A stretch of 40,862 nt of DNA from Gemmatimonas phototrophica (GTDB lineage: Bacteria > Gemmatimonadota > Gemmatimonadetes > Gemmatimonadales > Gemmatimonadaceae), in contig CAMBRJ010000002.1 of assembly GCA_945870175.1 (NCBI GenBank), forward strand, positions 1 through 40,862, read 5' to 3'. The notes under the pieces are model-generated. The model saw only the letters and a list, made by a program, of their open reading frames with translations, made no database searches and was not told the DNA's origin. A program made the position numbers and the translations under genes. The first letter of the stretch is position 1. Each line of letters opens with the position of its first letter. Of this stretch, positions 1,870-33,549 are shown in pieces.

Positions 1870-1999
1870 AGCAAGAACAAAAGCCAGAACACGGATGACA
1901 CGGAGCTACGCGGAAACCACACGGATAAGCCAACAGCGTCTTTTGCTTATCTATGCTGCTTCGGTGCAATCAGCATGATCCGTGTTCCGGCATTTTGCT
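1870..1999. repeat. Intergenic long imperfect inverted repeat H1 (ACGGAT-word family)
   Basis: Arms 1870-1930 and 1945-1999, 14-nt loop caacagcgtctttt. Left arm words AACACGGAT GACACGGAG CTACGCGGA AACCACACGGAT AAGC; reverse complement of right arm AACACGGAT CATGCTGAT TGCACCGAA GCAGCATAGAT AAGC. Confidence 0.8.
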
Positions 2000-5821: not shown

Positions 5822-5920
5822 GAACTGATCACGCGGAGACGCAGAGGGCGCAGAGCTCGCAGAGGAAAAGTTCTCTCTGCGTTCTCTGCGCCCTCTCGGT
5901 TTTCTCTGCGTGATCAGTTC
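5822..5920. repeat. Intergenic long imperfect inverted repeat H2 (CGCAGAG-word family); may also act as a bidirectional terminator
   Basis: Perfect 13-bp outer stem GAACTGATCACGC/GCGTGATCAGTTC. Inner arm of 9-nt words ACGCAGAGG GCGCAGAGC TCGCAGAGG. Lies between convergent genes. Confidence 0.85.
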
Positions 5921-15099: not shown

Positions 15100-15199
15100 A
15101 AAACAGCTTGACCGCGGATTGGCACGAATGTTCGCGGATGAACAACAACAGCACATGATCCGTGTCGTTGTCCGTGTCGATTCGCGGTCATGCTGTTTT
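15100..15199. repeat. Intergenic long imperfect inverted repeat H3 (ACGGAT/CGCGGAT-word family)
   Basis: Left arm AAAACAGCTTGACCGCGGATTGGCACGAATGTTCGCGGAT; reverse complement of right arm AAAACAGCATGACCGCGAATCGACACGGACAACGACACGGAT; about 10-nt words; 8 nt after the hrpB stop. Confidence 0.8.
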
Positions 15200-15383: not shown

Positions 15384-15788
15384 ATGAGCGACGCACCGCT
15401 GCAAACACTGTTGCACCAAGAGCTCAGCAGCCAAATCATCCGCGCGTTCTATGAGGTGTATAACGCCCTCATGCGAGGCCTGCATGAAGTGTGCTACCAA
15501 AATGCGCTGCACGTCGAACTGCAGTTGCGCGGAATCCCCGTCGAACAGGAGGTCCCCTTTGCCGTGGTCTACAAGGGGCACATCATTGGGAAATCCCGCG
15601 TCGATCTGCTCGTCGACCGGAAGGTCATCGTCGAATGCAAGACCGCCAACACCTTGCACGCGCAGCATGAAGCGCAGATGCTGCACTACCTCAAAGCCAC
15701 CAACACCGAGCTTGGCCTGCTGATGTACTTCGGCTCGAAGCCACTGTTCCGGCGGTTCGTGCACACCAGCGACGTGACGGGGCCGTGA
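15384..15788 (+). CDS. GxxExxY protein (PDDEXK_3 family, PD-(D/E)XK nuclease-like)
   Basis: Start trimmed to MSDAPLQTLLHQEL (AGGAG upstream); RGLHEVCYQNAL = GxxExxY motif; RVDLLVDRKVIVECKT resembles the D...ExK nuclease signature. Confidence 0.88.
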   Translation: MSDAPLQTLLHQELSSQIIRAFYEVYNALMRGLHEVCYQNALHVELQLRGIPVEQEVPFAVVYKGHIIGKSRVDLLVDRKVIVECKTANTLHAQHEAQMLHYLKATNTELGLLMYFGSKPLFRRFVHTSDVTGP

Positions 15789-29752: not shown

Positions 29753-29871
29753 AGCAACAGCGGGAACACGGATCGAACCGATCGCGCCGATGCCACCGAT
29801 AAGCCACAACGCGCGGTTTGCTTATCGGTGCGATCTGCGTCATCCGTCAAATCCGTGTTCCAGTCGTTGCT
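29753..29871. repeat. Intergenic long imperfect inverted repeat H5 (ACGGAT-word family, same as H1)
   Basis: Core arms 29763-29804 and 29820-29861, 33 of 42 positions complementary, 15-nt loop. Each arm = GG + four 9-nt words ending GAT + AAGC. Confidence 0.88.
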
Positions 29872-29965: not shown

Positions 29966-31054
29966 ATGGCTACGCTGATCGCCCCCGAAACCACCGCCGC
30001 CAGCACGCGCGCCTTCCCGGCGCAGACCAGTCGCCCCTGGGGGCGACCGCGTGGCGCGCGCCACGACATCGGTTTCCACGAGCTGACCGGTCAGTACCGC
30101 ATCGACCTGCGCGATCAGGCGCCCGACCTGTTCGACGATGTGAGCGCGATGGACTGGTCGACGCTGACCTGGCGCGACGTGGGCCGGCCGTATCGTACCG
30201 AGAAGTGGTCGAGCGCCCGGCGGAGTTACGAGCAGGAACATCACCAGCCGCTCCCGGTCGTCGATGGATGGCGCCTGTTCAACACGGCGTTCCATCAGTT
30301 CTTCCTGACTGATGTGCCCGAGGCGCAGAGCCACGCGAAGGCGCAATTCGGTGCGGCCTTGTCGCGCCTGGATCTGCACGAGGCGAAAGAAGCCCTGCAA
30401 GACATCGCCTATCTGGCGGTGTGGAACAAGATCATGCGGGTGGAAGACGCGGTGTGGGATCCCCGCGGCAAGCGTGCGCTGTTCGCCGGCCTCGACGTGA
30501 AGAAACCGCGCATTCTGTTTCTTGGCGCGGCCGATGGCTACGAGGCGATGCAGCTGGCGGCGATGTATCCGGGCGGCGAGATCGTGCTGGTGGACTACGA
30601 TGCATTTTGCGCGACGGACCGCTTCGGCAAGTTCCCACTCGATTATCCGTTCCTGGGCGTCGATCCGACCACGGGACATCAGCGCGTGTGGTACCGCGAC
30701 GACATGCCGATTCACTTCGAGGTCGCCGACATTCGCGACCTGACATACGGCAAGGAATTCGATGTGGTCGTCTCCATCGGACTGCTGGAGCATTTCCCCG
30801 ACGCGCACAAGTCGGAGTGCCTCGAGATGCACCGGCGCTTCCTCAGGCCGGGCGGTACCGTCGTGATGACCACGCCGCGCAATCAGTTCAAGTCGCGCGT
30901 GTTCTACAACCTGATGGCCGACTGGATGAACCACGGCTATCGTGAACTGATGGACGTGCGACAGATGGGGCTGTACTGCCACGAAAACGGCCTCGACATT
31001 CAGCGCGCCGGCGTGATCAAGGCGCACAACGGATTGGTGATGAAGCTGCGGTAA
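29966..31054 (+). CDS. Class I SAM-dependent methyltransferase
   Basis: 362 aa; RILFLGAADGYEAMQLAAMYPGGEIVLVDYD, FDVVVSIGLLEHFPDAHKSECLEMHRRFLRPGGTVVMTTP. Confidence 0.85.
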   Translation: MATLIAPETTAASTRAFPAQTSRPWGRPRGARHDIGFHELTGQYRIDLRDQAPDLFDDVSAMDWSTLTWRDVGRPYRTEKWSSARRSYEQEHHQPLPVVDGWRLFNTAFHQFFLTDVPEAQSHAKAQFGAALSRLDLHEAKEALQDIAYLAVWNKIMRVEDAVWDPRGKRALFAGLDVKKPRILFLGAADGYEAMQLAAMYPGGEIVLVDYDAFCATDRFGKFPLDYPFLGVDPTTGHQRVWYRDDMPIHFEVADIRDLTYGKEFDVVVSIGLLEHFPDAHKSECLEMHRRFLRPGGTVVMTTPRNQFKSRVFYNLMADWMNHGYRELMDVRQMGLYCHENGLDIQRAGVIKAHNGLVMKLR

Positions 31055-31104
31055 CGCAGTGCGTGCATGCAGGTTGTCTTTTCACTTCGACCATCGGGAT
31101 ACGT

Positions 31105-33549
31105 GTGACTCTCCTCTCTCGCTCGACGCGTTGCATCGCGGTTTTCGTGGCGCTGGCTCCGGCGTTTGTACCGGCCACCGCGCAGGCGCAGTACCGGCAG
31201 CCGCCACAGCCGATCGCGCAGATTCTCGACCAGCCAGCCACACCGCTGGTGCAGCTGAGTCCAGATCGTCAGCAGTTGCTGCTGCTGGAACGTCCGGCGC
31301 TGCCGCCGATCAGTGAAGTCGCGGCGTTCGAATATCGTCTGGCCGGATTGCGCTTTGATCCCAAGACCAGCGGACCCACGCGTGGACAGAGCTACACCGG
31401 TCTGTCGTTGCAGTCGGTAAGCGGTGGTGCGGCGCGCAAGATTCAGGCGTCGATTCCCGCTGGCAGCAGCATCGAGAACGTGTCCTGGTCGGCCGATGGT
31501 CGGAAGATCGCGTTCACGGTGACGAGCGGCGACGCGATCACCGTGTGGGTTGCCGACGTCGCGACGGCGCAGGCGAAGCCGCTCACGTCGCAGCGTCTTA
31601 CGGCGATTCTGGGCAATCCCTGCTCGTGGGTGTCCACCGCGTCGCTGGCCTGCACGTTCGTGCCCGCGGCGCGCGGTACGGCACCGGCCATGACAGTCAC
31701 GCCGGAAGGACCGATCGTGCAGGAAGCGCTCACCGGTCGCAGTGACCGCGCCGCCACGTATCAGGATCTGCTCAAGAGCCCGTTCGACGAAACGATCTTC
31801 GAACATTACGGCACGAGTCAGCTCGCACTGGTGTCGCTCGATGGCACGGTGAAGCCCCTTGGCGCGCCCGGCATGCGCACCGATGTGAGCGCCTCGCCCG
31901 ATGGCCGCTACCTGCTGGTGAGCACGCTCTCGCGTCCGTTCTCGTACACGGTGCCGTTGAGCTACTTCCCCACGCGCACCGAAGTGTGGTCGATGGATGG
32001 CGCGGTGGTGAAGTCGATCGTGGCCCATCCGCTCATCGAGCGCGTGCCCTGGGGAGGCAATGGCGCCCTCGCTGGCATCCGCAACGTGCAGTGGCGTCGC
32101 GATGTCGATGCCACGCTGGCGTGGGTGGAAGCCCTCGATGGGGGGGATAGCGATTCGAAGGCGGACAAGCGGGATCGCATGGCGTTGCTCGAGGCGCCAT
32201 TCACGGGCACACCGAAAACGCTGCTGGAAACGAGCTGGCGTGCCGGCGCGGTCACGTGGGGCACGGCGGGGCTCGCGATCGCACGCGAGAATGAAGGCAA
32301 GACACGGAAGACGCGCGCCTGGATCATCGATCCGTCGGGCGCCAAGGCACCGCGGTTGTTGTGGGAGCGCTCGAGCGAAGATCGCTACGCCGATCCCGGC
32401 GACTTCCTCACCACGCGCGACGCGCGCGGGCAGACGGTGTTGCTCACCACGCCCGACAAGAAGGTGGCGTTTCTGACCGGACTCGGTGCCGGACCGGAAG
32501 GCGATCGTCCGTTCGTGGATCGCTTCGACCTCGCGACGGCCGCCAAGACGCGCGTGTTCCAGAGCGTCGCGCCGTACTTCGAGCAGCCCATCGGCATGCT
32601 CGATGCCAATGGCACCGTGGCGCTCACCCGTCGCGAGTCGAAGGCCGATGCGCCTAACTATTTCGTGCGCGATTTCGTGCGCAAGATCGCGCCGCGGGCC
32701 GTCACGCAGTTCACCGACCCGGCGCCGGTGTTCGCCGGTGTCACGAGCCAGCTGATCACGTACATGCGGCCCGATGGGGTGAAGCTGTCGGCCACGATCT
32801 ATCTGCCGGCCGGCTACGACAAGGCGAAGGACGGCCCGCTGCCGTTCTTCCTGTGGGCCTATCCGCTCGAGTTCCGCTCGCGTGAAGCGGCGTCGCAGGT
32901 GGTGGGTTCGCCGTACCGCTTCGTGCGGCCGAGCGGTGCGTCGCATCTGTTCATGCTCACGCAAGGCTACGGCGTGATGGATAACCCGACCATGCCTATC
33001 GTGGGCGTGGATGGGAAAGAGCCGAATGACACGTACGTCGAGCAGCTCACCGCGAGTGCCAAGGCGGCTGTGGACACGATCGTGGCAATGGGCGTGGCCG
33101 ATCGCGATCGCATCGGCGTGGGTGGACACTCGTACGGCGCGTTCATGACGGCGAATTTGCTGGCGCACACCCGACTGTTCCGCGCCGGCGTGGCGGAGAG
33201 CGGTGCCTACAATCGCACCCTCACGCCGTTCGGCTTCCAGGGCGAAGAGCGCACCTACTGGGATGCGCCCGAACTGTACGGCGCGATGTCACCGTTCACC
33301 TACGCCAACAAGATCAAGGATCCGATCCTGCTGGTACACGGCATGGCCGACAACAACACCGGCACATACCCGATCCAGAGCGAACGTATGTTCGCTGCGC
33401 TTAAGGGGAACGGCGCCACGACGCGCTACGTGCAGCTGCCCGGTGAGTCGCATGGCTACCGCGCGCGCGAAAGCGTGGGGCAGGCGCTTGCGGAGATGGC
33501 GGCGTGGCTTGATCAGTACGTGAAGCCGAAAAAGCGCGCCACGATGTGA
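31105..33549 (+). CDS. S9 family peptidase (prolyl oligopeptidase / glutamyl endopeptidase-like), secreted
   Basis: Signal peptide VTLLSRSTRCIAVFVALAPAFVPATAQAQ; GVGGHSYGAFMTANLLAHT (GxSxG), LLVHGMADNNTGTYPIQSERMFAALKG, PGESHGY. Alternative GTG start at 31063. Confidence 0.92.
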   Translation: MTLLSRSTRCIAVFVALAPAFVPATAQAQYRQPPQPIAQILDQPATPLVQLSPDRQQLLLLERPALPPISEVAAFEYRLAGLRFDPKTSGPTRGQSYTGLSLQSVSGGAARKIQASIPAGSSIENVSWSADGRKIAFTVTSGDAITVWVADVATAQAKPLTSQRLTAILGNPCSWVSTASLACTFVPAARGTAPAMTVTPEGPIVQEALTGRSDRAATYQDLLKSPFDETIFEHYGTSQLALVSLDGTVKPLGAPGMRTDVSASPDGRYLLVSTLSRPFSYTVPLSYFPTRTEVWSMDGAVVKSIVAHPLIERVPWGGNGALAGIRNVQWRRDVDATLAWVEALDGGDSDSKADKRDRMALLEAPFTGTPKTLLETSWRAGAVTWGTAGLAIARENEGKTRKTRAWIIDPSGAKAPRLLWERSSEDRYADPGDFLTTRDARGQTVLLTTPDKKVAFLTGLGAGPEGDRPFVDRFDLATAAKTRVFQSVAPYFEQPIGMLDANGTVALTRRESKADAPNYFVRDFVRKIAPRAVTQFTDPAPVFAGVTSQLITYMRPDGVKLSATIYLPAGYDKAKDGPLPFFLWAYPLEFRSREAASQVVGSPYRFVRPSGASHLFMLTQGYGVMDNPTMPIVGVDGKEPNDTYVEQLTASAKAAVDTIVAMGVADRDRIGVGGHSYGAFMTANLLAHTRLFRAGVAESGAYNRTLTPFGFQGEERTYWDAPELYGAMSPFTYANKIKDPILLVHGMADNNTGTYPIQSERMFAALKGNGATTRYVQLPGESHGYRARESVGQALAEMAAWLDQYVKPKKRATM

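Follow-up and report, generated by a model that had tools for sequence, protein, structure and literature searches.

Scattered hairpins with arms of nine-letter words in Gemmatimonas phototrophica and their possible kinship with GxxExxY nuclease genes

The window, meaning the whole stretch of 40,862 nucleotides that was analysed (Gemmatimonas phototrophica, assembly GCA_945870175.1, contig CAMBRJ010000002.1, positions 1 to 40,862), carries an imperfect hairpin, H1, at the DAO/VIT site, together with further hairpins made of related words and a gene of the GxxExxY family. The features are as follows.

1868-1886, + strand: outer, hexamer-like part of the H1 left arm, pairing partially with about 1988-2001 (from the fold and a comparison of the flanks of 44 copies)
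1887-1987, no strand: H1 core hairpin, imperfect, with left arm 1887-1930, loop 1931-1944 and right arm 1945-1987 (from sequence, fold and coordinates)
1887-1896, + strand: H1 left outer box GAACACGGAT, within which GAACACGGA is invariant in 25 aligned elements
1890-1926, + strand: H1 word array, CACGGAT/CACGGAG/CGCGGAA/CACGGAT, its four words spaced about 9 nt apart (from word scan and word consensus)
1924-1930, + strand: H1 inner box GATAAGC, paired with GCTTATC at 1945-1951
1931-1944: H1 loop CAACAGCGTCTTTT, 14 nt
1978-1987, - strand: outer box of the H1 right arm (ATCCGTGTTC on the + strand), within which TCCGTGTTC is invariant in 25 aligned elements
5822-5920, no strand: hairpin with the sister word CGCAGAGNN, belonging to the same superfamily, fold z -11
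15102-15199, no strand: word hairpin with CGCGGAT/CACGAAT words, lying immediately upstream of the window's GxxExxY gene
15384-15788, + strand: GxxExxY gene (TIGR04256) with a PD-(D/E)xK nuclease fold and intact catalytic motif residues; elsewhere the family carries word arms
29764-29860, no strand: H5, the window's second copy, which is of the B type and has the same boxes as H1; the insertion is absent from seven relatives

The preliminary description had reported a hairpin with outer box, inner box and loop at H1, with the boxes recurring in H5, and this anatomy was confirmed. Folded as DNA, H1 was more stable than 198 of 200 dinucleotide shuffles (z -3.0), and H5 gave z -3.8 against such shuffles. 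Inspection of the sequence at H1 revealed no T-run 3' of the hairpin, and in an Rfam search no curated model reached the gathering threshold for H1. The hairpin at 5822-5920 is a CGCAGAG hairpin and fits the same general word as the H1-type arms.

In the source organism's own 3.16-Mb draft genome, the arm pattern GAACACGGATN{20,45}GATAAGC matched 22 times in the forward and 21 times in the reverse direction, against no matches for the reversed control, and H1 therefore belongs to a repeat family rather than being a chance structure. The box pattern was present in 10 of 61 genomes searched, all from one genus. The conserved positions of 26 arms of 41 nt resolved into words CACNGA[T/A] at about 9-nt spacing, the fourth letter of each word and two spacer letters being free. 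The middle words, earlier described as divergent, do vary among copies, but they are degenerate copies of a single 9-nt word, CACNGA[T/A]NN, common to all copies. Comparison of flanks revealed a second, hexamer-like layer, (GCAACA)n, outside the outer box, with GAGATCGCTAAC in its place at one end. There are two arm types, A (41-43 nt, with ...GAA..CAACACGGATAAGC) and B (39-40 nt), and some elements mix arms of both. The repeat is scattered, its arms consist of short nine-letter words, and H1 is one copy of it. In genome G019 (contigs 161, 204 and 138) and at locus L298, the hairpin occurs in tandem or alternating clusters that are BIME-like.

A stricter cross-phylum pattern, CACGGATNNCACSGATN{40,70}ATCSGTGNNATCSGTG, for which about 0.002 matches would be expected in random DNA of the size searched, occurred in at least 119 stretches from over ten phyla and from archaea. 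The matches listed came from Bacteroidota, Verrucomicrobiota, Planctomycetota, Lentisphaerae, Gemmatimonadota, Acidobacteriota, Chloroflexota, several Pseudomonadota, Geobacteraceae, Spirochaetota and archaea. Among 26 genomes checked there were 1-65 copies per genome, and the reversed control gave 0. The strict pattern rarely matched in 150 genomes of Gemmatimonadota, because the H1 subfamily mostly uses CACCGAT/CACGGAA words. Around the 119 hairpin loci examined in other phyla no recurrent neighbour gene family was found, a single GxxExxY gene lying at 1.2 kb, and at none of these loci did two inward-facing arms lie far apart on either side of a gene. A search of the open-access literature for such hairpins, by sequence words and by topic, returned nothing relevant.

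The neighbour content of the hairpin loci thus at first spoke against GxxExxY (NCBIfam TIGR04256, Pfam PF13366, PDDEXK_3); when the question was reversed to the flanks of the gene, an association became apparent. Flanking inverted repeats with z>4 were found at 23 of 27 GxxExxY genes and at 4 of 225 control ORFs (p 1e-24, Fisher values treating loci as independent and the controls being ORFs of hairpin loci rather than matched genes), and inward word arrays on both sides at 17/27 and 4/225, respectively. The motif-based gene finder missed most GxxExxY genes, and a recount by profile search gave flanking inverted repeats at 25 of 30. This first set came from genomes chosen for their hairpins; hence an evenly drawn set of Bacteroidota was added, in which 15 of 29 GxxExxY genes had flanking inverted repeats with z>4, 21 of 29 had a word array on at least one side and 23 of 29 exceeded all 30 shuffles, with words such as CACAGAG, CACGGAG, CGCAGAG, CACGAAA and CACGGAT. 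Among plasmid-borne GxxExxY genes, flanking inverted repeats were seen at three of eight. Inverted word arrays flank GxxExxY genes in many phyla. Five genomes, those of Bacteroides faecis, Azospirillum melinis, Spirochaetia MS499-40, Methylobacter and an Anaerolineales MAG, also contain gene-less hairpins whose arms match in kind the arms that flank their GxxExxY gene. At loci L403, L423 and L399, the N-terminal codons of GxxExxY reading frames run through the word array, which is possible because 9 nt equals three codons.

At the level of whole genomes, PF13366 was present in 23 of 26 hairpin genomes, compared with GxxExxY in 39 of 80 sampled Bacteroidota (p 4e-4), and GxxExxY was present in 24 of 25 genomes of the source organism's own genus, compared with 1 of 16 outside it. 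Within that genus, clear flanking inverted repeats were found at just 10 of 62 GxxExxY genes, and a profile search identified none among the 62 with exact GAACACGGAT...GATAAGC arms.

Across 22 GxxExxY sequences, the residues G..E..Y, D, E.K and Q...Y were invariant, the pattern of a RecB/Cas4-like PD-(D/E)xK nuclease. An AlphaFold2 model of the protein encoded in the window (pLDDT 92) had as its nearest structures SSO0001 (a Cas4-family protein), lambda exonuclease-type nucleases and the archaeal Holliday junction resolvase Hjc, while a sequence search of solved structures with GxxExxY gave no match. The open-access literature searched contained two passing mentions of GxxExxY, neither of which gave a function.

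H1 itself has the character of these word arms, namely CRCRRAN-like words that are arrayed inwards and spaced 8-11 nt apart (array 1890-1926; column profile). There is no GxxExxY gene between its arms, only the 14-nt loop, so H1 could belong to the GxxExxY word-arm elements solely as a gene-less derivative. Since the arms around GxxExxY are those of gene-less hairpins in five genomes, H1 is best read as such a gene-less member: it is probably a non-autonomous copy of a mobile element with inverted 9-nt word-array ends, the gene-bearing relatives of which hold GxxExxY. The ends of the element would be inverted arrays of the general word CRCRRAN+NN, in the form CACNGAW+NN for H1, and in the gene-bearing relatives the gene for GxxExxY, a small PD-(D/E)xK nuclease, would fill the loop that H1 keeps at 14 nt. 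The window has a member of this family at 15384-15788, and members elsewhere lie between word arms of the same kind. GxxExxY, or machinery that includes it, may recognise the word arms, possibly after their extrusion into a hairpin or cruciform, and the same machinery would move gene-bearing and gene-less forms, H1 among them. Perfect long palindromes are unstable in bacteria (SbcCD), and mismatches between the arms may accordingly be tolerated or even favoured; dispersed copies may also swap arms by recombination. The wider proposal, that GxxExxY proteins are the movers of cross-domain mobile elements ending in inverted 9-nt word arrays and that the CACGGAT/CACAGAG/CGCAGAG-type hairpins common in environmental bacteria, including H1, are their gene-less derivatives, is advanced more tentatively, with somewhat short of even confidence.

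The most serious alternative, although a distinctly less likely one, is that H1 belongs to a MITE-like repeat moved by an ordinary transposase (DDE or other), with the word hairpin as an internal module; GxxExxY would then either travel as a passenger or form an element of its own built on the same words. In a Methanosarcinales MAG (L371-L388, L343), a 212-bp element with terminal repeats CATNNGTCATCGGTTAAG of its own encloses a CACGGAT hairpin, and 9 of its 11 copies are bordered by perfect target duplications of 10 bp, which favours this alternative and points to another machinery, a conventional transposase, that can move the hairpin there. In Bacteroides faecis (L349-L368), about 17 near-identical copies have additional conserved sequence on the flanks of the hairpin, together with further repeat modules, and the lack of any gene-bearing H1-type element in the source organism's own genus also agrees with it. 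However, the flanking sequences vary between lineages while the word hairpin stays, and in many phyla the words flank GxxExxY directly, the gene adjoining the arms. Like MITEs, of which ERIC, RUP and NEMIS are the comparison types, the H1 repeat is non-autonomous, shows insertion polymorphism and is placed at gene 3' ends, and its archaeal version has terminal repeats with a 10-bp target duplication; unlike them, its H1 subfamily has flanks too diverged to fix an insertion boundary or a target duplication, and its arms are word arrays recognisable across phyla.

The fate of individual copies was followed at orthologous sites located by a joined-flank search (first 6478 bases of the joined-flank query) and by alignment. 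Copies are gained, lost and replaced by another type at such sites. The presence/absence polymorphism on which the preliminary description had made its reading depend was clear: the alignment of orthologous sites placed the H5 insertion as absent from the seven relatives, site C3 was similarly polymorphic, and sites C41 and C32 also showed presence and absence among relatives. Site C3 holds an A-type hairpin in G000 and G027 (with intact spacing also in G023) and a B-type hairpin in G014 and G019; in G026 there is a mini hairpin, each arm of which has a single word, in G024 there is a remnant, and in G011 the site is empty. At the DAO/VIT site, where the preliminary description had suggested looking for empty sites, turnover was found: G000 and G023 have the A type, G019 and G029 have the B type, and in G026 the left arm alone remains, but no clean empty site for H1 was seen among relatives that keep DAO adjacent to VIT. 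In G014, G015 and G027, extra DNA separates DAO from VIT, and no word array was seen there. Separately, comparison of G027 (contig 25, about 30949-31900) with G000 (contig 41, 2078-5881) indicates that the stretch between two hairpins was apparently lost with one hairpin left, a deletion that, judging from flank positions, appears to fit recombination between copies.

The hairpins are located at the 3' ends of genes. In the genus, with gene orientation taken from simple codon-based gene calls and orthologues counted, copies occupied 18 convergent, 18 tandem and 1 divergent intergenic positions, and the ratio of convergent to divergent was about 11 to 1 after sites were merged by hand. In other phyla there were 29 convergent and 9 divergent positions, for which the odds ratio ranged from 4.9 to 11 with the choice of background. 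Of the 52 copies between tandem genes there, 40 were closer to the 3' end of the upstream gene. The scarcity of divergent positions in both data sets would suit a cis-acting 3'-end element, such as a bidirectional terminator or mRNA stabiliser, kept by selection and spread by recombination with no dedicated mover, as would a nested extra stem in the loop at one site, which showed two compensatory pairs across eight orthologues. Promoter avoidance alone, however, could yield the same placement. Orthologous sites at which the hairpin is present or absent, partly deleted or replaced by another type argue against such an element, as do the missing T-run after H1 and the lack of covariation in the arms, making this explanation improbable.

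The preliminary description had taken conserved ends, variable middles and maintained pairing as signs of selection for structure or of a mechanism copying one arm to the other. In 12 A-type elements, with loops swapped for a fixed linker and shuffled 3' letters as the null, 22 of 41 arm pairs never varied, and the variable pairs showed no covariation: they were paired in 83.5% of cases against 85.3 +/- 0.9 in shuffles, 494 of 500 shuffles pairing at least as often as the observed arms. Given variable positions without covariation, one arm is not copied to the other, and strong compensatory evolution or arm-to-arm copying of the middle words is excluded; the pairing of the arms comes from their invariant words, and the word grammar explains the conserved ends and variable middles. 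Middle words were slightly more similar within elements than between them (0.687 against 0.630, p 0.0009; p 0.013 inside length classes), an excess that shared arm types may explain. This excess and the two compensatory pairs of the single nested loop stem are what speak for pairing selection or arm copying, against which stand the variable pairs, paired less often than in shuffles, and site C3, where G000 and G027 differ at three positions of the left arm and at none of the right, so that this explanation is highly unlikely. The earlier interpretation as a whole therefore survives as regards a mobile or turning-over repeat and fails as regards copying between arms.

An equally remote explanation takes the hairpins for REP/REPIN (BIME) repeats that a RAYT or TIRYT tyrosine transposase would mobilise. 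Dispersed intergenic palindromes, tandem clusters and a general likeness to REPtrons and TIRtrons (PMC3733652) could be cited in its favour, but the complete genome G029 carries the repeat without a Y1 transposase, Y1 presence and the repeat are uncorrelated in the genus, and the words flanking the Y1 genes examined are GGGGTCAGAGTC-like, in no case CACGGAT. REPtrons and TIRtrons comprise the GTAG, CGTC and TIR families with RAYT/TIRYT, and TIRtrons carry the motif GGGGWSAS (PMC3733652), which the Y1-flanking words GGGGTCAGAGTC fit. The likeness extends to short palindromes that are scattered between genes and form clusters, to gene-bearing forms in which a small gene lies between inverted repeats, and to gene-less derivatives; in contrast, the H1-type arms consist of about 40 nt of 9-nt words and the partner is a PD-(D/E)xK protein, not an HUH tyrosine transposase. 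No GTAG/CGTC end tag was noticed by eye in the flank list of copies.

Two other gene families were considered as partners. Y1/RAYT was rejected as the mover, given the lack of correlation in the genus and the wrong flanking words, and IVP (PF05635) was rejected as a partner, its inverted arrays being present but of other words; GxxExxY-type words were found around 0 of 42 IVP and Y1 genes. As observations in their own right, inverted arrays of other short words occurred at 18 of 25 loci of IVP four-helix-bundle genes (L244-L273; e.g. L258, L255 and L268), and the Y1 transposase genes (L390-L396) had inverted arrays of GGGGTCAGAGTC-like words, as in TIRtrons.

If the wider proposal, of GxxExxY proteins as the movers, is correct, a PD-(D/E)xK nuclease would drive a whole class of mobile elements. 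The hairpins occur in many phyla and are apparently undescribed in the open-access literature searched, and their link to GxxExxY gives this widespread nuclease family a testable role and would extend to another enzyme class the REPtron/TIRtron idea that short palindromes are the shadows of a gene-bearing element. Within a single genus, one site can hold different hairpin types, one arm or nothing, so that these loci document in nature how copies are gained and lost and how arms are exchanged.
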